Assembly: GCA_013044035.1 (NCBI GenBank)
Contig: JABEVE010000106.1
Span: 1 to 56,839, forward strand
DNA: 56,839 bases
Direction of reading: 5' to 3'
Origin: Burkholderiales bacterium
GTDB lineage: Bacteria > Pseudomonadota > Gammaproteobacteria > Burkholderiales > Burkholderiaceae_C
Below the pieces are notes generated by a model. That model saw nothing but the letters and a program-made list of their open reading frames with translations, was not told the origin of the DNA and did no database searches. The position numbers were made by a program, and so were the translations under genes. This document shows positions 14,004 through 56,839 of this stretch, one piece after another. Positions within the stretch are counted from its first letter, which is position 1. Each line of letters opens with the position of its first letter.

Positions 14004-15341
14004 ATGTTATTAGCCGCCGTTGGAGTCAACCACCAGACCGCGCCACTCGATGTGCGCGAGCGTCTCGCATTTTCGGCCGACGGTCTGAAGGATGCGCTGC
14101 GCACGTTGCGCGACAACCTGGCTGCGCGCCGGGGCGGCAGCGAAGGCGCGGTGGAAGCGGCCATCCTCTCCACCTGCAACCGCACCGAAATTTACTGCGC
14201 CGCCGAGGCCGACCCGCGCGAGGCGCTGGTGCATTGGCTGGCGCAGTCGCGCGCGCTGCGCGAAGGCGACTTGATCGACCACAGCTACCGCCTGGTGCAG
14301 GACGACACTGTGCGCCACGCCTTTCGCGTCGCCAGCGGGCTCGACTCCATGGTGTTGGGCGAGCCCCAGATCCTCGGCCAGATGAAAGACGCGGTGCGCG
14401 CCGCGACCGACACCGGCACCCTGGGCAGCACCCTGGGGCAGATGTTCCAGCGCACCTTTGCCGTGGCCAAGGAGGTGCGCAGCGCCACCGCAATCGGCAC
14501 GCATTCGGTGAGCATGGCCGCCGCCAGCGTGAAGCTGGCGGAAACCGTCTTCGAGGACCTGGCCGACTGCCGCGTGCTGTTCATCGGCGCCGGCGACATG
14601 ATCGAACTCGTCGCCACCCATTTCTCGGCGCGCAAGCCGCGCTTCATGGCCATTGCCAACCGCACGCTGGAGCGCGGCGCCAAGCTGGCAGCGCAGTTCA
14701 GCGCCGAAGCCATGCGCCTGGCCGATGTGCCGCAGCGCCTGCCCGAGTTCGACGTGGTCGTCACGTCCACGGCCAGCACCCTGCCCATCATCGGCCTGGG
14801 CGCGGCCGAGCGCATGGTCAAGCAGCGCCGCCACAAGCCTGTGGTGATGGTCGATCTGGCCGTGCCGCGCGATATCGAGGCCGAGGTCGGCGAGTTGCCC
14901 GACGTCTATCTCTACACCGTGGACGACCTCACCGAACTCGTGCGCACCAACAGCGAGAAGCGCCAGGCCGCGGTGCAACAGGCCGAGGCCATCATCGAAA
15001 CCCGGGTGCAGGGCTTCTTGCAGTGGATGGACAGCCGCGAACAAGTGCCGCTGATTCTGCAACTGCAAGACGTCAGCCGCCAGTGGCAGGCCGCCGAACT
15101 CGACCGCGCGCGCCGGCAACTGGCGCGTGGTGAAGACGCCGAGGAGGTACTCGACATGCTGGCGCGCAATCTGTCGCAAAAGTTCATGCACAACGCCTAC
15201 GCCGCCATGCACCACAGCAACCCCGCGCACCGCGAGCAAGTCGCACGCGCGGTGCAGCGTTTGTTTCTCGCGCCGCACCGCGGCTGCGGCAGCAATGGCG
15301 ATGGTGGCGACGGCCGCGGCAAGGACGCCAACAACAGCTAG
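14004..15341 (+). CDS. hemA: Glutamyl-tRNA reductase
   Basis: Reduces glutamyl-tRNA(Glu) to glutamate-1-semialdehyde, the first committed step of tetrapyrrole synthesis by the C5 route. The N-terminus [20 protein letters not shown] and the catalytic cysteine region [10 protein letters not shown] are present, as are [13 protein letters not shown], the NADPH-binding [13 protein letters not shown] and the substrate-recognition [16 protein letters not shown]. The 445-residue length is slightly longer than usual because of a Gly/Asp-rich tail ([19 protein letters not shown]). It heads the conserved block hemA-prfA-prmC-grxD-ubiX. Confidence 0.97.
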
Positions 15342-15428
15342 CTGAGTTGTTGGCGCGTGCCGGGCCGCAAGCTTGCGCCGCGCGCTGCACGCGCTCATGT
15401 GTCCGCTGCGGACCTCCACATACCACCC

Positions 15429-16508
15429 ATGAAACCATCGCTACGCGACAAGCTGGCCGCCATGTTGCGCCGCATGGACGAGATCGACGCCCTGCTCGGT
15501 GCGCCGGACGGCTCCACCGACCCCGACCGCCTGCGCACCCTGGGCAGCGAGCGCGCCGAGTTGGCGCCGGTGGCCGCGTGTTATGCCGAATTGCTGCAGG
15601 CCGAAACCGCACACGCCGACGCCCAGGCACTGCTGGCCGAGCCCGAGATGCGCGCCCTGGCGCAGGACGAAATCGCATCCACGCAGCAGCGCATCATGGC
15701 GCTCGAGGCCGAACTGCAAACGGCACTGCTGCCTCGCGACGCGGACGACCGCAAGCCCGCGTTTCTCGAGGTGCGCGCCGGGACCGGGGGCGACGAGTCC
15801 GCCCTGTTCGCCGCCGACCTGCTGCGCATGTACACCCGCCATGCGGAGCGCCGCGGCTGGCGCTGCGAAGTCATCAGCCATGCCGACAGCGACCTCGGCG
15901 GCGTGAAAGAGGCCGTGGTGCGCATCAGCGGCGAGGGCGTCTACGGCCGGCTCAAGTTCGAGAGCGGCGGCCACCGCGTGCAGCGCGTGCCCGCCACCGA
16001 GTCGCAAGGGCGCATCCACACCAGCGCCGCAACCGTGGCGGTGATGCCCGAGCCCGACGCTCAAGCCGCGGTGCAGATCAACCCGGCCGAGTTGCGTATC
16101 GACACCTTCCGCGCCTCCGGCGCCGGCGGCCAGCACATCAACAAGACCGACTCGGCCGTGCGCATCACCCACCTGCCCACGGGCCTGGTGGTGGAGTGCC
16201 AGGACGACCGCTCGCAGCACCGCAACAAGGCGCAGGCGCTGGCGGTGCTGGCTGCGCGCCTGGAGCAGCGCCAGCGGCAGCAGGCGCAGGCGAAGGAAGC
16301 CGCGCAGCGCAAGAGCCTGGTCGGCAGCGGCGACCGCTCCGACCGCATCCGTACCTACAACGTGCCGCAAGGGCGCGTCACCGATCACCGCATCAATCTC
16401 ACGCTCTACAAGATCGACGCCATCCTGAACGGCGATCTCGACGAACTGCTCGACGCCCTGCACGCCGAACATCAGGCCGAGTTGCTGATGGCGCTGGGCG
16501 AGGCATGA
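15429..16508 (+). CDS. prfA: Peptide chain release factor 1
   Basis: Recognises UAA and UAG stop codons and triggers peptide release. The GGQ motif appears in [20 protein letters not shown]. Just before it is the [20 protein letters not shown] region, which carries the PxT-type stop-codon recognition sequence of RF1. The 359-residue length matches the family. The ATG at 15429 is chosen because [19 protein letters not shown] aligns with other RF1 N-termini; the frame is open further upstream. It is followed 76 bases later by prmC, which methylates the GGQ glutamine. Confidence 0.97.
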
Positions 16509-16584
16509 ACCGCAGCGTCGTGATGGCCACCACCCATCGCCACCATCGCTACGCCACGCCCAGTCGCACAACGTGATAATGCCC

Positions 16585-17466
16585 ATGACCCTTGAAGCCT
16601 GGATGCGCCAGGCCGGCCTGGCGCGCATCGACGCGCTGGTGCTGCTGCGCGAGCTGGCCGGCATCGGCCATGCCACCTTGCTCGCGCATCCCGAAATCTC
16701 GCTGGACGCCGCGGCCCTCGGGCCGCTGGACACTGCCGCCACACGCCTGCGGGCCGGCGAACCGCTGGCTTATGTGCTGGGCTGGCGCGAGTTCTATGGC
16801 TTGCGCTTCGCGGTGAGCCCGGCCGTGCTGGTGCCGCGTCCCGAGACCGAGTTGCTGGTGGATTTCGCCCTGGCGCGCACACCACACGACGGCTACGCCA
16901 CCGTGCTCGACCTGGGCACCGGCAGCGGCGCCATCGCCGTGGCTGTGGCGCATGCACGGCCTCAGGCCGAAGTGTGGGCCGTGGACTCCAGCGCCGACGC
17001 ACTGAGGGTGGCCGCCGCCAACGCCCAAGCGCTGTTGCCGCGACCGCGCCCTGGCGGTCCGTTGCTCCTGTTGGCCGGCGACTGGTTCGCCGCGCTGCCA
17101 GCGGCTGCACCACGCTTCGACCTCATCCTCGGCAACCCGCCTTACGTCGCAGCGGGCGATCCCCACCTCGTCGCACTGGCGCACGAGCCGCAACTCGCCC
17201 TGGTGGGCCGCGCCAGCGCCGACGGCCTGGCTGACATCCGCCGCATCGTCACCATGGCGCCCGCGCATCTGGCCGCCGGCGGCTGGCTGGCCCTGGAGCA
17301 TGGCCACGACCAGGCCGCCGCCGTGCAGGCGCTGCTGCGCTCAGCGGGCCTGGTGGCGGTGCAGACCCGGCCCGACCTCGCGGGCATTGCGCGCCTGACA
17401 CTCGGACAGGCGCCAGCCAGGGCCCGCATCCGCCCGAACTCCGGCTCGAGTGCACCGATGACGTGA
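16585..17466 (+). CDS. prmC: Release factor glutamine methyltransferase
   Basis: Methylates the GGQ glutamine of release factors using S-adenosylmethionine. The SAM-binding motif VLDLGTGSGAIAVAVA and the catalytic LILGNPPYV motif are present, together with the family sequence VLVPRPETELLVDFAL. The ATG at 16585 is used; GTG at 16573 and ATG at 16579 are alternatives in the same frame. At 293 residues it is slightly long because of a tail (ARARIRPNSGSSAPMT) lacking conservation. The prfA-prmC pairing is conserved across bacteria. Confidence 0.95.
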   Translation: MTLEAWMRQAGLARIDALVLLRELAGIGHATLLAHPEISLDAAALGPLDTAATRLRAGEPLAYVLGWREFYGLRFAVSPAVLVPRPETELLVDFALARTPHDGYATVLDLGTGSGAIAVAVAHARPQAEVWAVDSSADALRVAAANAQALLPRPRPGGPLLLLAGDWFAALPAAAPRFDLILGNPPYVAAGDPHLVALAHEPQLALVGRASADGLADIRRIVTMAPAHLAAGGWLALEHGHDQAAAVQALLRSAGLVAVQTRPDLAGIARLTLGQAPARARIRPNSGSSAPMT

Positions 17467-48651: not shown

Positions 48652-50775
48652 ATGCGACGCAGCCACCTTGATTGTGAATCCGACCGTCCAGCCGCGAGCA
48701 CGACCCAGCTCGACCCCATCGTGCAGCTCTGGATCCTGCGCATCCTGTTGCCGCTGGACGGTTTGCACCGTCTGCTGACTGAGGGAGTCGGGAGCATGCC
48801 GCTGCTGGAACGCGTGGGCCTGCGCTCGCGCGACATCGACGACGAAGCCACCACGGCGACGCGGGAACGGCAGATCAAGCGCCAGCTCAAGCCCCTGTGG
48901 GACCGGGCCGAGCGCAGCGCCAGCGAGCTCACCGCGCCCCAGGCACTGACAGACAACGTCGCTCGTCTGGCCGCACTGGTGCATCTGTCCGAGACCGAAT
49001 GCCGCATCCTCGAATTCGTCTGCCTGCTGCACAGCGTGCGCGAACTCGACGACGCCGCCGACGCCCTGGGGCATCTGACGACGTCCAAACTGCAGTCCAT
49101 GCTGCAGCACATCCTGGCGCTGCCGGGCGACGCGGTGAAGCAGGCGCTGTCCTCGCGTGGGCAACTGATGCTCAGTGGGCTGATCAAGATCGAGAAATCG
49201 GGGCATTACCAACTGAGCGGCAAGCTGGAATTGTTGTCCGAACAGTTTGCCGACACCATCCTCGCGCCCGACGCCGACCCCATGGCCTTGCTGCGCGGCG
49301 TGGTCTCCCGCAGTGCGCCGCCCACGCTGCGGCTCGACGACTATCCGCACCTCGGCCTGAACCTGCCCATGCTCCTTGCCTATCTGCGCGAGACGCAGAC
49401 GCAGCAGCGGCCCGGCGTCAATGTGCTGCTGTACGGCCCACCCGGCACCGGCAAGACGGAACTCAGCCGCACCCTGGCGCAGGAACTCGGCTGCGAACTG
49501 TTCGAGATCGCCTACGAGGACGAAGATCACGACCCCATCGGCGGCGAAGACCGCATCCAGGCCTTCCGCGCCGCGCAGCGCTTTCTGCGGCGCGAGCAGA
49601 TCATGCTGCTGTTCGACGAGATCGAAGACGTGTTCCAGGGCGACAGCCTGCCGGGCCTGTTCGGCGCCGCCTTCCTGCGGTCCGGCGCCGGCCGCCGTTG
49701 CAAGGGCTGGATCAACCAGACGCTGGAGGGCAACACCGTGCCCACCTTCTGGCTGACCAACGCCGTTGCCAATCTCGATCCCGCCTACATCCGCCGCTTC
49801 GACTTCGTGCTGGAGCTGCCGGTGCCACCGCAGTCGGTGAGGCAGCGCATCGCCACCGCCTGCGTCGGTGAACAGGTCGATGCCGCCACCGTGCGCGCGC
49901 TGGCCGCGAGCGACGTTCTCGCCCCCGCCGTGCTCACCCGCGCCGGCGCCGTGCTGCGCACCATCGACGCCCGGCTGCCGCCGGAACAATCCGCCCCGGC
50001 CCTGCTGCAACTCGTCAACAACACCCTGCAGGCGCAAGGCCACGCCACCATTGCGGCGCACGACTCCAGCCGCCTGCCCGAGGTCTATGACCCCGCCTAC
50101 GTGCACACCGACGCCGACCTCGCCGCCCTGGCCGACGGCATCGCCCGCAGCGGCAGTGCCCGGCTGTGTCTGTACGGCCCACCGGGCACGGGTAAAACCG
50201 CCTACGCCCGCTGGCTGGCGCAACGCCTGCAGCGCCCGCTGCTGGTCAAGCGCGCCTCCGACCTGCTGAGCAAATGGCTGGGCGAGAGCGAACGCAACAT
50301 CGCCCGCGCCTTCCAGGAGGCCGAGCGCGAGCGCGCGGTGCTGCTCATCGACGAGGTGGATGGCCTGCTGCAGGAGCGGCGCGGCGCTACCCACTCCTGG
50401 GAAGTCACCCAGGTCAACGAACTGCTCACCCAGATGGAGGCGTTCTCCGGCGTGTTCGTCGCCACCACCAATCTGGTGCGCGGGCTCGATCAGGCCGCCC
50501 TGCGGCGCTTCGACCTCAAGGCCAAGCTCGACTACCTTCGCCCCGATCAGGCCCAGGCGCTGCTGCGGGCGTATGGCCTGCATCTGGGTTGGTCCTGCAC
50601 CGACGCCGCACAGCGCGCGGTGGCCCGCCTGCCCAGCCTGACGCCGGGCGACTTCGCGGCGGTCGTGCGCCGCCACCGCTTTGCCCCTCTGGCCGACGCC
50701 ACAGCCCTGGTGCGGGCGCTGGCTGACGAATGCACCCTCAAGGACGCGCCGAAGGCCGTGCTGGGGTTTGTGTGA
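48652..50775 (+). CDS. Two-domain AAA ATPase
   Basis: A 707-residue protein. About 240 N-terminal residues of mostly helical character (no family recognised) are followed by two AAA modules. Module 1 (about 255-420): Walker A YGPPGTGKTELSRTLA, Walker B MLLFDEIEDVF. Module 2 (about 500-700): Walker A YGPPGTGKTAYARWLA, Walker B VLLIDEVDGLL, and a segment like FtsH/Cdc48 sensor regions (VATTNLVRGLDQAALRRFD). Both P-loops and Walker B acids are intact, so both rings may hydrolyse ATP. ATG at 48652 has AGGAG 6 bases upstream. Function is unknown; remodelling of protein or DNA complexes is the usual AAA role. Base composition is like the core genome. Confidence 0.85.
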   Translation: MRRSHLDCESDRPAASTTQLDPIVQLWILRILLPLDGLHRLLTEGVGSMPLLERVGLRSRDIDDEATTATRERQIKRQLKPLWDRAERSASELTAPQALTDNVARLAALVHLSETECRILEFVCLLHSVRELDDAADALGHLTTSKLQSMLQHILALPGDAVKQALSSRGQLMLSGLIKIEKSGHYQLSGKLELLSEQFADTILAPDADPMALLRGVVSRSAPPTLRLDDYPHLGLNLPMLLAYLRETQTQQRPGVNVLLYGPPGTGKTELSRTLAQELGCELFEIAYEDEDHDPIGGEDRIQAFRAAQRFLRREQIMLLFDEIEDVFQGDSLPGLFGAAFLRSGAGRRCKGWINQTLEGNTVPTFWLTNAVANLDPAYIRRFDFVLELPVPPQSVRQRIATACVGEQVDAATVRALAASDVLAPAVLTRAGAVLRTIDARLPPEQSAPALLQLVNNTLQAQGHATIAAHDSSRLPEVYDPAYVHTDADLAALADGIARSGSARLCLYGPPGTGKTAYARWLAQRLQRPLLVKRASDLLSKWLGESERNIARAFQEAERERAVLLIDEVDGLLQERRGATHSWEVTQVNELLTQMEAFSGVFVATTNLVRGLDQAALRRFDLKAKLDYLRPDQAQALLRAYGLHLGWSCTDAAQRAVARLPSLTPGDFAAVVRRHRFAPLADATALVRALADECTLKDAPKAVLGFV

Positions 50776-50858: not shown

Positions 50859-52313
50859 ATGCCGCCAGGACTGTCCAAATCGCGCATCATCAGCCACCGC
50901 CAATGTCCCAAGCGCCTGTGGCTGCAGGTCAAGCGCCCGGATCTGCTCGACGATTCGGCAACGCAATCCGTCCTGTCGGTCGGCAACACCGTCGGCACAC
51001 TCGCCCGGGCCATGATCCCCGACGGTGTGCTGATCGACGCCGCCGATCTGCGCGAGGCCCTGCGCCAAACAACCAGCGCCCTGGCGGCCAAGCCCCGGCG
51101 CGTGCTGTTCGAGGCCACGGCGCAGCATGACGGCGTGCTGGTGCGGGCCGACGTGTTGTCGCCGCTGCAGCGCGGCTGGCACATGATCGAGGTGAAGTCA
51201 TCGAGCAAACTCAAGGACTACCACGTCGAAGACGCCGCCATCCAGAGCTGGGTACTGCGCCAAGCCGGCGTGCCGCTGGCGGCGGAGTCCATCGCCGTGG
51301 TCGATACCGCCTACGTCTATCCGGGCCAGGGCCGCTACGCCGGCCTGCTGCGGCAGGAGGAGATCACCCGCGACGTGGCCGAACGTCGCGGCGAGGTGCC
51401 GCAGTGGATTGCCGCCGCCCGCAAAACCCTGACCGCCACCAAGGCGCCGCGCATCGACCCGGGGCCGCAATGCAACTCACCCTTCGCCTGTCCGTTTCAG
51501 GCGCATTGCATCCCGCCGGCAGAAGGCTACCCGGTGGACATCCTGCCCTACGGCGGCAAGCTCGCCACAGCGCTCAAGGCCGAGGGCTACGCCGACCTGC
51601 GCGACGTGCCCAAGAGCCGCCTGAGCAACCCCCGCCACCTGCAGGTCTGGCAGGCCTCGCGCAGCGGCAAGGCGGTGGTCGACCCCATCCTGCCCCAGAC
51701 CCTGCGCGCGCTCGGCTACCCGCGCACCTACATGGACTTCGAGAGCCTCAACCCGGCCATTCCCATCTGGCCCGGCACCCGGCCTTACCAGCAGGTCGTG
51801 TTCCAGTGGTCCTGCCACATCCAGACGCGGGGCGGGCGCGTCACCCACCGGGAATTTTTATCCGACGGCCCGCAAGACCCGCGGCACGCATTTCTCACCA
51901 CCCTGCTCGACGCCGTGGGCCGCTCGGGGCCGGTGCTCGTCTGGAACGACGCTTTCGAGAAAACCCGCCTGCGCGAACTCGCCACGATCTTCCCCGCGTT
52001 CGCTCCGCGCATCGACGCCCTCATCAATCGCCTTGTGGACCTGCTGCCGCTGTTCCGCAAACATTACTACCACCCCGCCATGATGGGCTCCACCTCGCTC
52101 AAGGACGTGCTGCCGACGATCGCCCCGGATCTTGCGTATGACGACCTCGAAGTGGCGAACGGAACCATGGCGCAAGAGGCGTTTCAGCGCATCTTGTTAC
52201 AGCGCATACCACAAAGCCAGCGAGAATCGACACGGCAAGCGCTGCTCCAGTACTGCGAGCGGGACACGGGGGCGCTGGTGCGGGTGGTGCGCGAGTTCGA
52301 AGCAAAGAATTGA
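50859..52313 (+). CDS. Cas4/RecB-like nuclease fused to a DEDD-type domain (DUF2779)
   Basis: A 484-residue protein. The N-terminal half looks like a Cas4/RecB nuclease: Cys16 in HRQCPKRLW, the PD-(D/E)xK core as Asp in LVRADVLSP plus EVK in MIEVKSSSKL, and three more cysteines at 205, 211 and 217 (CNSPFACPFQAHC), the pattern that holds a 4Fe-4S cluster. The C-terminal half is DUF2779 with exonuclease-like acids: MDFESLNPAIP (D293, E295), LVWNDAFEKTRLREL and YCERDTGALV. It probably processes DNA or RNA ends. It is 84 bases downstream of the AAA ATPase. The ATG at 50859 is used. Confidence 0.85.
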   Translation: MPPGLSKSRIISHRQCPKRLWLQVKRPDLLDDSATQSVLSVGNTVGTLARAMIPDGVLIDAADLREALRQTTSALAAKPRRVLFEATAQHDGVLVRADVLSPLQRGWHMIEVKSSSKLKDYHVEDAAIQSWVLRQAGVPLAAESIAVVDTAYVYPGQGRYAGLLRQEEITRDVAERRGEVPQWIAAARKTLTATKAPRIDPGPQCNSPFACPFQAHCIPPAEGYPVDILPYGGKLATALKAEGYADLRDVPKSRLSNPRHLQVWQASRSGKAVVDPILPQTLRALGYPRTYMDFESLNPAIPIWPGTRPYQQVVFQWSCHIQTRGGRVTHREFLSDGPQDPRHAFLTTLLDAVGRSGPVLVWNDAFEKTRLRELATIFPAFAPRIDALINRLVDLLPLFRKHYYHPAMMGSTSLKDVLPTIAPDLAYDDLEVANGTMAQEAFQRILLQRIPQSQRESTRQALLQYCERDTGALVRVVREFEAKN

Positions 52314-52324
52314 CAAAATCCAAT

Positions 52325-53635
52325 ATGCCAATCAACAACACAAAGACCAAGGTTACAAACGATTCTTCTCAGTGGTTTTCCCCCATCCCAAGCGCTTCGA
52401 CAGCCAAACGGCTGAGCCTGGATTTCGGGCTCCGATCAGATGACCTCTTTTTCCGTGAACTAATCGTTCCGGGAATCGGAAGCGTCTGGTTCGTCCGCCA
52501 GCTTTCCTGGCCCCTGGCCGCACTGGCATTGCGCAAAAAACTGCCGAGCTCGCGGCTTCGCCCGGCGGAAATCTGCTATGCAATCGAGGCTCTGGCGTGC
52601 AAACTGGAATTCAAGTACGGCGACAAGGACTCGCGCCGCACTCTCGGGCGGCGTGCCTTCGAACGCGACGAAAACGGGGGGCAGTGGTCGTTTTCGCAGT
52701 TGCGCAAGGTGACGAACTATGTCCGCAACACACATCGCCAAGCTGCCATACGCGCCATCCGCAGCGAACAGGGGCTCGGTCTTGCGCACGGTACACGCTT
52801 TGACCTCTTTGAATTGGAACCCGTTGGGCTGCAAATGGCCGAGGCATTCCTCTCGCAGCGTGTGGGCCAGGGGCGCGGAACCACACTTGAAACCTGGCTG
52901 CGCAACTGGATCGAAGGTCAACAACAAATTCCCGACAAGCCGAAAACCCTGCGCGAGGCGCTCACACCAGAGCGTGCAACGCAGAAAGAATGTGATCTGA
53001 TCCGCACGCGGCTTCTCGGAATCGATACGCTAGCTTGCAAGAAGCGGCAGCAGCTTGCACGTGTGATCGGGCGCGCAGCAAGTCTGTCCAGTATCGAGGA
53101 TGTCGACGTCACACGGCTGCGCAATGATGGCCATACTGCGCAGGCCGACGAAGTGCTTGCCGCGTGCGCTTTCGGCGCCATGCTCGACCGTGCCCGTGAC
53201 GTCGTCTCCAAACTGACCAGCGCAGTTGAGAGTGTCCGAGGGAGCGTTGCGCTCACAACGCTAGCCAAAGGTTCAGACATCCAAGGTGCGCTCGAGAACC
53301 TGCGCAAAGTCGCGAACAGCTATATCGAAAGGGCCGGCACTGCGAAAGTGCAGCTCGCTAGCTCACATGCCTTCGCCAAAGCATTCATTGATGACGATGG
53401 CGTTGGGGGTATACGATTTCTGGTGCAACGCTCCGACCAGGTTCTGGGGCTTGCGAATGGCACCGTCAGTCGCGGCCCTCTGTTTCGCATCGTCCCCTCT
53501 ACCGACGGCAGTGAAGCACCCGACAACACCGAGGACGATGAACAGGGGAGAGCGCCCGACTTCACCGGAAGAACATTCCGCCTTGCGAATCTGCACGCTC
53601 TGTTGCGCGATCTCAATGCCGGGGGCGCGCAATGA
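52325..53635 (+). CDS. Unrecognised 436-residue protein, first gene of a coupled set
   Basis: No family was recognised. Soluble, mostly helical by composition, without signal peptide or membrane segments. Visible features are an aromatic N-terminal part (FFRELIVPGIGSVWFVRQLS), a basic middle with several Arg/Lys clusters, and an acidic linker near the C-terminus (APDNTEDDEQGRAPD). The start at 52325 is 11 bases after the DUF2779 stop; TTG at 52310 would overlap it. Its stop overlaps the ATG of the PLD gene by 4 bases, so they are translated together. Base and codon use are less GC-rich than in the genes before it, a sign of transfer. Confidence 0.75.
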   Translation: MPINNTKTKVTNDSSQWFSPIPSASTAKRLSLDFGLRSDDLFFRELIVPGIGSVWFVRQLSWPLAALALRKKLPSSRLRPAEICYAIEALACKLEFKYGDKDSRRTLGRRAFERDENGGQWSFSQLRKVTNYVRNTHRQAAIRAIRSEQGLGLAHGTRFDLFELEPVGLQMAEAFLSQRVGQGRGTTLETWLRNWIEGQQQIPDKPKTLREALTPERATQKECDLIRTRLLGIDTLACKKRQQLARVIGRAASLSSIEDVDVTRLRNDGHTAQADEVLAACAFGAMLDRARDVVSKLTSAVESVRGSVALTTLAKGSDIQGALENLRKVANSYIERAGTAKVQLASSHAFAKAFIDDDGVGGIRFLVQRSDQVLGLANGTVSRGPLFRIVPSTDGSEAPDNTEDDEQGRAPDFTGRTFRLANLHALLRDLNAGGAQ

Positions 53636-55506
53636 AGGCCGAGACACTGCTCGACATATTCGAGCCGCCAGATGGCTTGGTCGGGCACAGCGCGGCCCTC
53701 GTCGCCATGTCGGGCGAGGAGAATTTTCTAGAGGATGCCATGCTGCGTTTCACGCGGCTGGTCCCGCGACAACGAGCGGAACTTGGCGTCACCTACGCGT
53801 TCCTCATGCTCGACGGACACGCATCAACGTCACGGCAGACGGTTTTTCCGCCTAGGCGCATCCCCGGTCTCCACGAGTTTCAGCCGCGCCAAGTCGACGC
53901 CAAATCGTTATTGCATGCGAAAGTCGCGCTGCTAGCGTTCTCTCAGTCTCGCATGGGCCCGCCCAGTCACCTGCGGTTGGCCGTGCTCACGGCCAACTAC
54001 ACGTATACCTCGGCACGGGAGCAACTTGAGTTGGTGTGGATCGTCGATGTTGCCCTCAATGGCAAGGCGGGCAGCGAGGACCGCGTTGATGTCGCGGCTG
54101 CGGGCAAGTTCGTGCAAGAACTCCTCGATGGGCGCTTCTACCGCGACAAGCAAGCGGGTTTGACCGCACGACTCGATACGCTTCTTGAAGTTTCGTCTTC
54201 AGTCGAGCCGGCCCGCCGCAACCGCAAGCCGCGCTTCATCCACTCGCTTGAGGCCCCGCTGTACGGCCAGATCCGCGAGCGTTTCCGCAGCGCGATAGAC
54301 AAGCCGAGGAACCTGCTGCTTTGTGGCTCCGGGTTCTACGAGGAGCCGTCACGTCATGCAGTCAAACCGGAAGTCTTAGCCAAACTTGAAGAATTGGGAA
54401 AGTTCACAGATACCTTTCGTCGCGTTGTCCTCGTTGAACCCGACAACGCCGGGGCTGTAGGGGAGTGGGCTAAAAATGGACAAACCGAGGGCTGGGAGAT
54501 TTTTCGGCCCTTTGATTCCCATTTCCATCGTCGGAGGCTACATGCAAAGTTCGTGTACGCGGGTCATCTCCGCGATGGCCAGGTGAGCAACGGTTGCCTT
54601 TATCTTGGTTCCGGAAACCTCTCAAAACGCGGCATTCTTTCTCACGGCAAGATGACCGGAGGGCATGTGGAGACGGGAGTGGTGTTTACTGTCAATGACC
54701 GTCTCGATGGCGATGCACTTGTGGAAAGATTCTTCTGTTCCTGCAGAAGTAAAAGCATTCGCGAAGGCGAATGGTCAGTCAATCAGCCGGGCGACGCTCC
54801 CGACGCGCAGCCCATCCTCGACGCGCCGCCGATCCTCTCTGCGGCCATCAAGCTGGAGCCGCGGCGCCTAGCTTTGTTCTGGCGCGATGACGTCGGCTCC
54901 GGTGCGCACGCGCGTATCTCATGGACGGGGCGCGACGGCTTCGATGTGATCCAGAGCCAAGACGACGTCCCGTTGAACGCCGATGAAAATCCGGCGGCAA
55001 TCTCCGTAAGCGATCAACGCGGTGCATGGACCGTGCCCGTCGTGGACGACACTGGGCGCGTCGGCTGGCAGCCGAAGGGGTGCGACACCTTCGCTGACGC
55101 ACTGGATGCTCTTCTCGACTTCCCTATGCGTCCGGCCGAGGACATGGACGAAGACGAGGAGGGCGAGGTCGTTGAAGGCAACACCAAAGACGCAGTGATG
55201 GGCCATGCGCAAGCTCAACAGACCAAGCACTATGCCCTGCACGCAGCAGCCGAACTCATTGAAAGCATCGCAGCGCTGCAATCGGCGTTGTCCGATCCGA
55301 TGTTTAACGACTGGCTCGATCATCTCGACCGGATGTTCCGCGCCTCATTCCCCAAGGATCTGATCAAAATTTGGCAGAAACATGGGCTCAATGTTTTCAT
55401 GCATCTCAAAAAGAAGGAGCTGTGTCCGTCGAGATGGAGCGACGATCAACGCCGGCGCTATGCCGAGATGCTTGACCGGCTGGCAAAGGTTTGGGAGCTG
55501 CAATGA
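53632..55506 (+). CDS. Phospholipase D/Tdp1-like protein
   Basis: A 624-residue protein with two HxK motifs of the PLD superfamily: LLHAKVALLAF (about 92-102) with N in LTANYTYTS (about 119-127), and LHAKFVYAGHL (about 303-313) with GSGNLSKRG (about 326-334). HxK followed by N, without the usual Asp, is the pattern seen in tyrosyl-DNA phosphodiesterase and PLD-type nucleases. The C-terminal 250 residues contain an acidic stretch (EDMDEDEEGEVVEG) and a helical end. It overlaps its neighbours on both sides by 4 bases (ATGA). DNA end-processing or nuclease activity is likely but unproven. Confidence 0.82.
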   Translation: MKAETLLDIFEPPDGLVGHSAALVAMSGEENFLEDAMLRFTRLVPRQRAELGVTYAFLMLDGHASTSRQTVFPPRRIPGLHEFQPRQVDAKSLLHAKVALLAFSQSRMGPPSHLRLAVLTANYTYTSAREQLELVWIVDVALNGKAGSEDRVDVAAAGKFVQELLDGRFYRDKQAGLTARLDTLLEVSSSVEPARRNRKPRFIHSLEAPLYGQIRERFRSAIDKPRNLLLCGSGFYEEPSRHAVKPEVLAKLEELGKFTDTFRRVVLVEPDNAGAVGEWAKNGQTEGWEIFRPFDSHFHRRRLHAKFVYAGHLRDGQVSNGCLYLGSGNLSKRGILSHGKMTGGHVETGVVFTVNDRLDGDALVERFFCSCRSKSIREGEWSVNQPGDAPDAQPILDAPPILSAAIKLEPRRLALFWRDDVGSGAHARISWTGRDGFDVIQSQDDVPLNADENPAAISVSDQRGAWTVPVVDDTGRVGWQPKGCDTFADALDALLDFPMRPAEDMDEDEEGEVVEGNTKDAVMGHAQAQQTKHYALHAAAELIESIAALQSALSDPMFNDWLDHLDRMFRASFPKDLIKIWQKHGLNVFMHLKKKELCPSRWSDDQRRRYAEMLDRLAKVWELQ

Positions 55507-56765
55507 CCTTCTCATGGGAAAATTGGGTTGTGGCACTGCAGGGGACGCAAGAGTCCCCGCTTCTTGACGATGGACAGCGGGCCTCGCTTGCTTGGATGGG
55601 GAAACGCCTGCCGCAAAGCGGCCTTGTGCTCGCCGACGAGGTCGGCACCGGCAAGACTCGCATCGCCTGCGCTGTGGTTCAGGCCGTGCTGAAGGTCAAC
55701 GGTCGTGCGGCAGTCGTCGTTCCGCATGGCTTGATGCACCAATGGCAGGAGGAGGCGAAGAAGCTGGGCATGCCGCCAGCCAAAACGTTCACTTCGGTGA
55801 GCGACTTCGTTGAGAAAGCAAAAGACCTCATCAAAAACGAGCAATCCAAGCTGTGGGACAGCATCGCCCCGAAACCAGACGCACCGGAATGGCTGTTGAT
55901 CTCTCACGGCTTTCGCTCGCCGCAAGTGCGTCAAGGCAAAAAACTTGCCGAATGGCGTGTAGCACTACCTTCCTACGTCCTCGCACAACTGTCTTCAAAA
56001 GCCGCACGAACAGACCGTCGGACACTGGTCGGCAAGCTGCTTGACGATCCGCACAAAGTGATTAAAAGCATTTCTGAAGAGATCGCTGACAGATTTGACA
56101 AAAAAGGCAGAGAAGTTCTTCGCAAGCGACTCGAAGAGTTGCCGCCGTATCGACGCGGCGGTGACAACAAGAGTTTGGCGGAAAACCTTCAGAACGGAGG
56201 ACGCGAAGTTGTCGAAAAACTCCTGGGCTACTGGCTTGGTGAATTCGACCTCCTCGTCATAGATGAGGCGCACAAGAGCAGAAGCGAAGTCGATGACCCT
56301 GATGACAAGACCACTGTAGTTTCGGGCTCCTTGCTCTCGCGCCTGGTCGATTCCATTTTGCGGCAGCCCCAGACCGGGCGGCGGCTTTGCCTTACGGCAA
56401 CGCCCATGGAACTCGAACCGTCGCAGTGGCTCGACCTCCTCAAGCGTGCGCGTAGCGACCTGAACGCAGTTGAAGTGAAAAAGAAAAAGACGGTGAAAGT
56501 GACGATTGAAGAATTTCAGGTCGCAACTCGCGACGCGGCGATCGCACCGGACGAATCGGAGCGCCTCGCCGAACTGATAAATGCGTCAAAGGCGTTTGAG
56601 GACATGCTCAAAGACTTTGTGACCCGGCGCAGGCGCAATGAAGACGAGATCATCCAACACTTCAGTTCGCGCCTAGGACAGTCGAATGGAAAACCCCACC
56701 CGCATCGGCGCTCCCGGCCATTACCGATTGGCTGGGCTGATGGGCGATGTCCCGGAATTTGTTGA
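55503..56765 (+). CDS. SNF2-type helicase, first half only
   Basis: A 420-residue reading frame with the N-terminal domain of a superfamily 2 (SNF2-like) helicase: motif I LADEVGTGKTRIACAVVQ, motif Ia VVPHGLMHQWQEEAKKLG, DEAH box LLVIDEAHKSRSE and motif III RLCLTATPMELEPSQ. The C-terminal helicase domain (motifs IV-VI) is absent: the frame ends at 56765 shortly after VTRRRRNEDEIIQHFSS, 74 bases before the window edge. Either the gene is interrupted (possible mobile intron just after the stop) or it is frameshifted. Its start overlaps the PLD stop by 4 bases. Lower-GC codon use matches the two genes before it. Confidence 0.8.
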   Translation: MTFSWENWVVALQGTQESPLLDDGQRASLAWMGKRLPQSGLVLADEVGTGKTRIACAVVQAVLKVNGRAAVVVPHGLMHQWQEEAKKLGMPPAKTFTSVSDFVEKAKDLIKNEQSKLWDSIAPKPDAPEWLLISHGFRSPQVRQGKKLAEWRVALPSYVLAQLSSKAARTDRRTLVGKLLDDPHKVIKSISEEIADRFDKKGREVLRKRLEELPPYRRGGDNKSLAENLQNGGREVVEKLLGYWLGEFDLLVIDEAHKSRSEVDDPDDKTTVVSGSLLSRLVDSILRQPQTGRRLCLTATPMELEPSQWLDLLKRARSDLNAVEVKKKKTVKVTIEEFQVATRDAAIAPDESERLAELINASKAFEDMLKDFVTRRRRNEDEIIQHFSSRLGQSNGKPHPHRRSRPLPIGWADGRCPGIC

Positions 56766-56772
56766 ACGGATA

Positions 56773-56839
56773 GTGTGAAGGTGGCGGCTCCTTTCGCCCG
56801 CATGAGAGCATGCGGGTGCCTCGCAAGCAAAGAAAGGAG
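56773..56839 (+). mobile_element. Candidate 5' end of a group II intron
   Basis: GTGTG at 56773-56777 fits the GUGYG start of group II introns. It is followed by a perfect 8-base stem CCCGCATG/CATGCGGG (56797-56804 with 56809-56816) with loop AGAG, of the kind found in intron domain I. It begins 7 bases after the premature end of the helicase frame. The window stops too soon to see a reverse transcriptase gene or domain V. Another mobile element or plain non-coding sequence would look the same at this length. Confidence 0.3.

Follow-up and report, generated by a model that had tools for sequence, protein, structure and literature searches.

A Conserved Operon of an Unfamiliar Protein, a Tdp1-Like Phospholipase D Enzyme and an SNF2-Type Helicase: A Probable Azaca-Like Defence Module in a Broken Burkholderiales Copy

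Introduction

What is the function of three tightly coupled genes that encode, in order, a protein of no recognisable family, a phospholipase D (PLD)-type enzyme and an SNF2-type helicase, and that stand at the very end of a bacterial contig? The question is raised by a stretch of 56,839 nucleotides from a Burkholderiales bacterium (GenBank assembly GCA_013044035.1, contig JABEVE010000106.1), here called the window, which is an entire contig of its assembly. A preliminary description made from the sequence letters took the trio for part of a nucleic-acid-processing, possibly anti-phage, system, saw kinship with DISARM (defence island system associated with restriction-modification) and with clusters of DUF1156, DUF499 and DUF3780 proteins, and placed the other genes of the system beyond the window. 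The answer favoured here, at a probability of roughly two in three, is that these genes form a DNA-attacking defence operon resembling Azaca, a new variant in which the first gene cannot be recognised as ZacA, and that the copy in this genome is broken. We arrive at this reading because the three genes are linked across genomes, the PLD protein is of Tdp1 type and related to ZacB, the third gene encodes an SNF2 helicase, and partner genes are shared with at least one Azaca locus. Carriage on plasmids, a single case of carriage on a viral contig, and neighbouring genes of BREX (bacteriophage exclusion) systems also count for defence.

A Conserved Trio of Overlapping Genes

The trio consists of the following features.

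52325..53635, + strand: gene 1, 436 amino acids from its ATG; an in-frame TTG at 52310 is a possible start that would give 441 amino acids
53632..53635, + strand: four-base ATGA overlap of gene 1 and the PLD gene, read directly in the sequence
53632..55506, + strand: PLD gene, 624 amino acids, for a predicted Tdp1-like PLD phosphodiesterase, a putative distant relative of ZacB
55503..55506, + strand: four-base ATGA overlap of the PLD and helicase genes, read directly in the sequence
55503..56741, + strand: N-terminal part (413 codons) of an SNF2-type helicase (PF00176, E 7e-10), its C-terminal helicase domain missing

Both junctions are as the preliminary description gave them, and so is the lower GC content of the trio (gene 1 0.590, PLD gene 0.591, helicase 0.566) relative to the window at 0.667; the two genes directly upstream stand at 0.689 and 0.671. 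Searched against Rfam at gathering thresholds, the window gives no match.

Of 43 candidates from a genome scan with the window PLD protein as sole query, none was related; an alignment query then succeeded, and the scan of named genomes with it found 127 relatives. The best 80 of these 127 loci, together with seven plasmid records, make up the 87 loci considered below, which were chosen by their PLD gene and are not all independent. Gene 1 is present in all 87, and a helicase was found by script in 81. Five of the six misses have a contig end at most 291 bp from the PLD match; in the sixth, L036, the helicase lies behind an insertion that splits the PLD gene, so that the helicase is present, and the order gene 1, PLD, helicase kept, in 82 of 87. 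Given that the same order recurs in so many loci, the linkage of the trio is more than chance, and the co-occurrence in other genomes by which the preliminary description proposed to judge its case is indeed found. The taxa named in the record titles include Proteobacteria, Archangium, Polyangiaceae, Acidobacteria, Planctomycetes, Lentisphaerae, Latescibacterota, Desulfobacteraceae and Nitrospirota. Within the order and the genus of the source organism the PLD gene is found in 3 of 349 and 2 of 28 genomes, the source genome being counted in both. Among viral contigs, one of 30 patterned stretches encodes a PLD relative. The module is widespread and apparently uncatalogued.

Three individual loci deserve mention. 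An IMG/VR contig (L198, 3891-20119) carries AAA, WYL, trio, PD-(D/E)XK and UvrD genes in a single run. On the Paracoccus versutus plasmid pBEN (L034, 10756-13770) gene 1 and the PLD gene form one open frame of 1004 amino acids, possibly a natural fusion, which, if true, would favour physical association of the two proteins. Finally, L216 (3270-9470) holds a trio-like run of 434, 686 and 943 amino acids whose middle gene is related to the trio PLD family; its first gene is not detectably gene 1, has no Pfam match and found nothing when used as a query against plasmids, and the run is perhaps another branch.

The Middle Protein

The PLD protein carries two putative catalytic motifs, each invariant in 74 aligned sequences.

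53914..53997, + strand: motif 1, H95-x-K97 ... N122
54541..54672, + strand: motif 2, H304-x-K306 ... G326-S-G-N329 ... E347

The invariant residues are thus H95, K97, N122, H304, K306, G326, S327, G328, N329 and E347. The PLD members lack the HKD aspartate, an N standing in its place, and this double H-x-K...N layout is that of Tdp1 (tyrosyl-DNA phosphodiesterase 1), a DNA-repair enzyme of humans. At E 0.1 or better, PLDc_2 is matched by 57 of the 74 members and the Tdp1 family PF06087 by 32 (best 1.9e-6); the window protein itself matches neither at that threshold. Its AlphaFold2 model (predicted local distance difference test, pLDDT, 89.9) retrieves Tdp1 structures as the PDB matches ranked 1-38, with a best E of 3.5e-10 and identities of 10-14%. 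The predicted fold and the two motifs together indicate that the middle protein is Tdp1-like, as the preliminary description had recognised.

Relationship to Azaca

The Azaca system, reportedly described by Millman et al. in 2022, is said to consist of ZacA (a DUF6361 protein), ZacB (a PLD protein) and ZacC (a helicase). The trio has the Azaca-type order, an unfamiliar protein followed by a PLD protein and a helicase, on one strand and overlapping or adjacent. The PADLOC model of ZacB is matched by 67 of the 74 PLD members at E 0.001 or better (best 3.3e-12); other PLD models, DrmC included, are matched by 0 of 74, and a single member has a stray JetB match. In 14 control genomes the ZacB model has no match at 1e-10. 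Aligned with hhalign, the trio PLD family meets ZacB with a probability of 94.8 (E 5e-8, global E 3.5e-9), the control comparisons of the gene 1 and SNF2 profiles with ZacB giving E 0.3. The seven-member clade of the window joins the other PLD members at E 5e-86, and H-x-K...N and H-x-K...GS(G/A)N...E are kept in four of four aligned ZacB proteins. Judged from these comparisons, the trio PLD family is a distant relative of ZacB at the family level, with the window copy below threshold. The profile comparison of the helicase with ZacC gives E 6e-11, and the helicases of L045 and L033 match ZacC at 1e-15 and 6e-12, several other SNF2 models scoring higher. ZacC is described as a helicase in PMC12278908.

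Genuine Azaca loci provide the standard of comparison. ZacB has a match at 1e-10 or better in nine of the 398 genomes of the phylum. In four of the nine the match is strong (1e-116 or better); DUF6361 occurs in the same four and in no others, and the order ZacA-ZacB-ZacC holds in all four. Six of 45 plasmid records with DUF6361 were opened, and in all six DUF6361 is followed by a middle gene and then a large gene, the former annotated as phospholipase D in five and the latter as helicase or helicase-related in five. One genuine Azaca locus (L214, 1-12451) has WYL, PD-(D/E)XK and UvrD genes directly upstream; compared with their counterparts next to the Haematobacter trio (L030), its PD-(D/E)XK and UvrD proteins show 39% and 47% identity. 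In the same position a Mesorhizobium Azaca plasmid has a distantly similar UvrD gene and a gene annotated PD-(D/E)XK that shows no similarity to the PD-(D/E)XK of the trio; a close pair occurs only in L214 among the ten genuine Azaca loci examined. That the same set of partners lies beside the trio and Azaca suggests, without proving it, that both cores do the same job. Elsewhere, the Azaca copy of the Bradyrhizobium elkanii plasmid pBel61 (L225) starts within 6 kb of genes for Ku, a DNA ligase and an SOS peptidase.

The first gene is not recognisable as ZacA. As the preliminary description had it, the gene 1 protein of the window resembles nothing recognisable: it has no Pfam, PADLOC or NCBIfam match, and, stray matches aside, gene 1 is recognised by none of the models in PADLOC-DB 2.0.0. 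The structure prediction recommended for this 436-residue protein has been run and yields a mostly helical model (pLDDT 88.1) for which the best Foldseek matches have E 1.0 in the PDB and 0.27 in BFVD; PDB sequences searched with gene 1 and PLD profiles gave no convincing match. A helix-hairpin-helix stretch near residues 137-176 of the model may represent a winged helix. Because ZacA was tested for and not found, the trio, which looks built like Azaca, is not classed as Azaca proper.

Several observations weigh against an Azaca-like defence operon. None of 73 gene 1 members matches PADLOC ZacA or Pfam DUF6361 (a few have single stray matches to other families), and hhalign of gene 1 with ZacA gives only E 0.07-0.26. 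The PLD proteins of the window and of L045 match no PADLOC model, and the window's seven-member clade taken alone meets ZacB at probability 57 and E 1e-4, less closely than all members together do, which slightly lowers the probability of the Azaca-like reading and slightly raises that of a repair function. A ZacB profile built here matches 22 of 74 PLD members at 1e-3, with the window at 0.011, and its best match in the neighbourhoods, above any PLD member, is a non-trio open reading frame in L052; the converse search with the trio PLD profile recovered two of four genuine ZacB proteins. The helicase scores PDC-M27C, DrmD, BrxH and HmaA above ZacC. No PLD match occurs in 50,697 phage records, the AAA and DUF2779 genes considered below are often present without the trio, and the tally of defence models among neighbours has no control set and so is no measure of enrichment. 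The L052 frame (14830-17124, minus strand), which matches the built ZacB profile at 2e-9 and lies near a trio, is a second PLD-type gene of its locus.

A Broken Copy at a Mobile Element

The third gene is of SNF2 type, as the preliminary description stated, but it is not whole: only the first 413 of about 895 codons are present. Over residues 1-413 it is 69% identical to the intact L045 helicase (residues 1-409), which also carries Helicase_C. Homology ends after residue 413, and the frame, rather than running on to the last base of the window at 56839, meets its stop codon at 56765, within a repeat whose start lies at about 56742.

56742..56839, + strand: end of a multicopy mobile element, probably of the IS256 family, where the contig breaks; identical 97-99 bp lie at three other contig ends

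This element end of 97-99 bp breaks the source assembly at four places (contigs C57, which is the window, C41, C37 and C54), and in one genome of the same genus the repeat precedes transposase-like open reading frames. The family name is presumptive and taken from sequence patterns. The repeat has no match in the plasmid collection. Queries with the C-terminal halves of two relatives did not recover the missing half from the assembly (95.15% complete) and gave short matches to other helicases only; the missing half may have been lost, or it may not have been assembled. Contig C70 was considered as its location and rejected. The helicase gene on that contig (L019, 2-1768) has a Helicase_C match and runs off the contig end. 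With its second motor domain gone, the helicase would leave the system of the source genome probably inactive. A second broken copy of the system is found on the Novosphingobium plasmid pSA1 (L036, 9137-13446), where an insertion of about 2.3 kb splits the PLD gene.

The surroundings of the trio differ from those first proposed. Downstream lie a mobile element and the contig end, and the likely partners, which the preliminary description sought beyond the window, are inside it and upstream.

Upstream Partner Genes

Directly upstream, on the same strand, are two genes where the end of a core-gene region had been seen.

about 48652..50775, + strand: double AAA+ ATPase, often found beside the trio; PF00004 matches two stretches (E 1e-43), and the frame is open from 48466 with an uncertain start
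about 50859..52313, + strand: DUF2779 protein (PF11074, E 3e-44) with a weak RNase H-like C-terminus and a Cas4-like N-terminus; open from 50730, start uncertain

In the DUF2779 protein RNase_H_2 stays below its cut-off and PADLOC Cas4 matches at E 6e-8; the gene ends 11 bp short of the gene 1 start codon (ATG). It is possible, at somewhat less than even chances, that the trio alone is the system and that AAA, DUF2779 and WYL form a separate module that adjoins it. At E 1e-30 or better, AAA occurs in 34 and DUF2779 in 30 of the 349 genomes of the order, the source genome included, as against three for the PLD gene, and AAA-DUF2779-WYL runs occur without the trio, for example in L181 and L182. 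Because of such runs, AAA-DUF2779-WYL is a module of its own that sometimes travels with the trio. Further, the GC content of the upstream pair is unlike that of the trio. Among the 68 trio loci with at least 6 kb upstream, an AAA homologue lies within the fetched flanks of 21, DUF2779 in 5, WYL in 29 and the PD-(D/E)XK and UvrD pair in 11, with UvrD alone in a twelfth, and 34 show none of the five. Set against this separation, the run AAA-DUF2779-trio is repeated, with a full-length helicase, in L045, apparently of the same genus, and L065 and L095 have AAA-DUF2779-WYL-trio, with WYL between DUF2779 and the trio. The contig coordinates of the L045 PLD gene are those of the match in the same-genus genome G719.

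Attack on Foreign DNA or Repair of Its Own

For an Azaca-like operon that attacks DNA, a course of events can be sketched. The mostly helical gene 1 protein would act as a sensor or adaptor that marks foreign DNA, on which the ATP-driven SNF2 motor would then translocate, stripping bound proteins; the Tdp1-like enzyme would cleave the backbone through a covalent phosphohistidine step, and partner nucleases, here perhaps the DUF2779 protein and elsewhere the PD-(D/E)XK and UvrD pair, would resect the ends. A role in remodelling or regulation is probable for the AAA and WYL partners. A more specific proposal, which we regard as quite improbable, is that the Tdp1-like effector unlinks or cuts invader DNA capped by protein, such as relaxase, terminal-protein or topoisomerase adducts, and exposes it to RecB/AddAB-like resection, in which case an immunity that recognises protein-DNA adducts would be common to Azaca and the trio.

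The same parts might instead serve repair, the Tdp1-like enzyme freeing the cell's own DNA of covalently trapped proteins, SNF2 clearing roadblocks and RecB-like partners resecting. This is an unlikely account. The Tdp1 fold and motifs agree with it, as do the recombination-type partners (PD-(D/E)XK with UvrD, and DUF2779) and the one Azaca plasmid copy near Ku and ligase genes; yet the spread of the PLD gene through order and genus is patchy, trios are carried on plasmids and on a viral contig, and the kinship of the PLD protein with ZacB and the BREX neighbours all speak for defence.

Those neighbours bear on the link to defence islands that the preliminary description named. The trio of Haematobacter follows a BREX-1 cluster, and by similarity to annotated Haematobacter genes PglZ-like open reading frames are found in L081, L086 and L097 and BrxL-like ones in L036, L086 and L097. 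A scan with models covered 121 of 487 neighbouring open reading frames; the first 25 of 124 models matching neighbours include GajA, type I and II methylases, PglZ, MkoA, mad2 and WYL, with one or two members each. Taken with the linkage of the trio and the ZacB-related PLD protein, some BREX neighbours uphold the early proposal in its general form, that of a nucleic-acid-processing, possibly anti-phage, system. Its specific form fares differently. By eye, and without a direct profile search, no methylase was recognised in the neighbour clusters common to at least three loci, and single methylase matches occur among the 121 sampled neighbours; no DrmA or DrmB was recognised among the neighbours clustered or sampled and listed, a survey that was not a locus-by-locus search, and no direct search was made for DUF499 or DUF3780. 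That the trio belongs to a DISARM or BREX-related (DUF1156/DUF499/DUF3780) restriction system is scarcely credible, despite the scores of its SNF2 protein against the DrmD and BrxH models and an HKD nuclease with a Swi2/Snf2 helicase that figures as effector of BREX-related systems in PMC12839542, for besides the methylase result no PLD member matches a PADLOC PLD model except ZacB, and an N replaces the HKD aspartate.

Significance and Comparison with Known Systems

The literature searched yielded no description of the trio module and no mechanism for Azaca, which a review lists as unknown (PMC12926258). The trio represents a branch next to Azaca that is widespread and apparently uncatalogued. 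It also offers a handle in the named invariant residues of a Tdp1-type active site and in partner nucleases that recur beside both cores.

Among known systems, the PLD-helicase fusion NF042964 and SauUSI share with the trio a PLD domain that works with a superfamily 2 helicase; these, however, are single-chain proteins, whereas the trio has separate genes plus gene 1. As a fold match of the trio PLD protein SauUSI is weaker than Tdp1 (E 1.3e-4), and the truncated window helicase scores 55 bits against NF042964, for which the cut-off is 1100. With DISARM the trio has in common a PLD protein and an SNF2-like helicase, but the 74 trio PLD members include no match to DrmC. Tdp1 (PF06087) resembles the trio PLD protein in predicted fold and in the double H-x-K...N motifs; the trio protein differs in its identity of only 10-14%, in an extra C-terminal part and in standing in an operon with an SNF2 helicase. 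Azaca differs in that gene 1 of the trio is not recognisable as ZacA/DUF6361 and in that the trio helicase, mostly about 850-940 amino acids by open reading frame call as against 1031-1096, is not closest to ZacC. The trio shares with Azaca the order of the genes, their overlap, the approximate sizes of genes 1 and 2 and the ZacB-type PLD motifs, and the WYL, PD-(D/E)XK and UvrD partners of one Azaca locus resemble those beside some trios.

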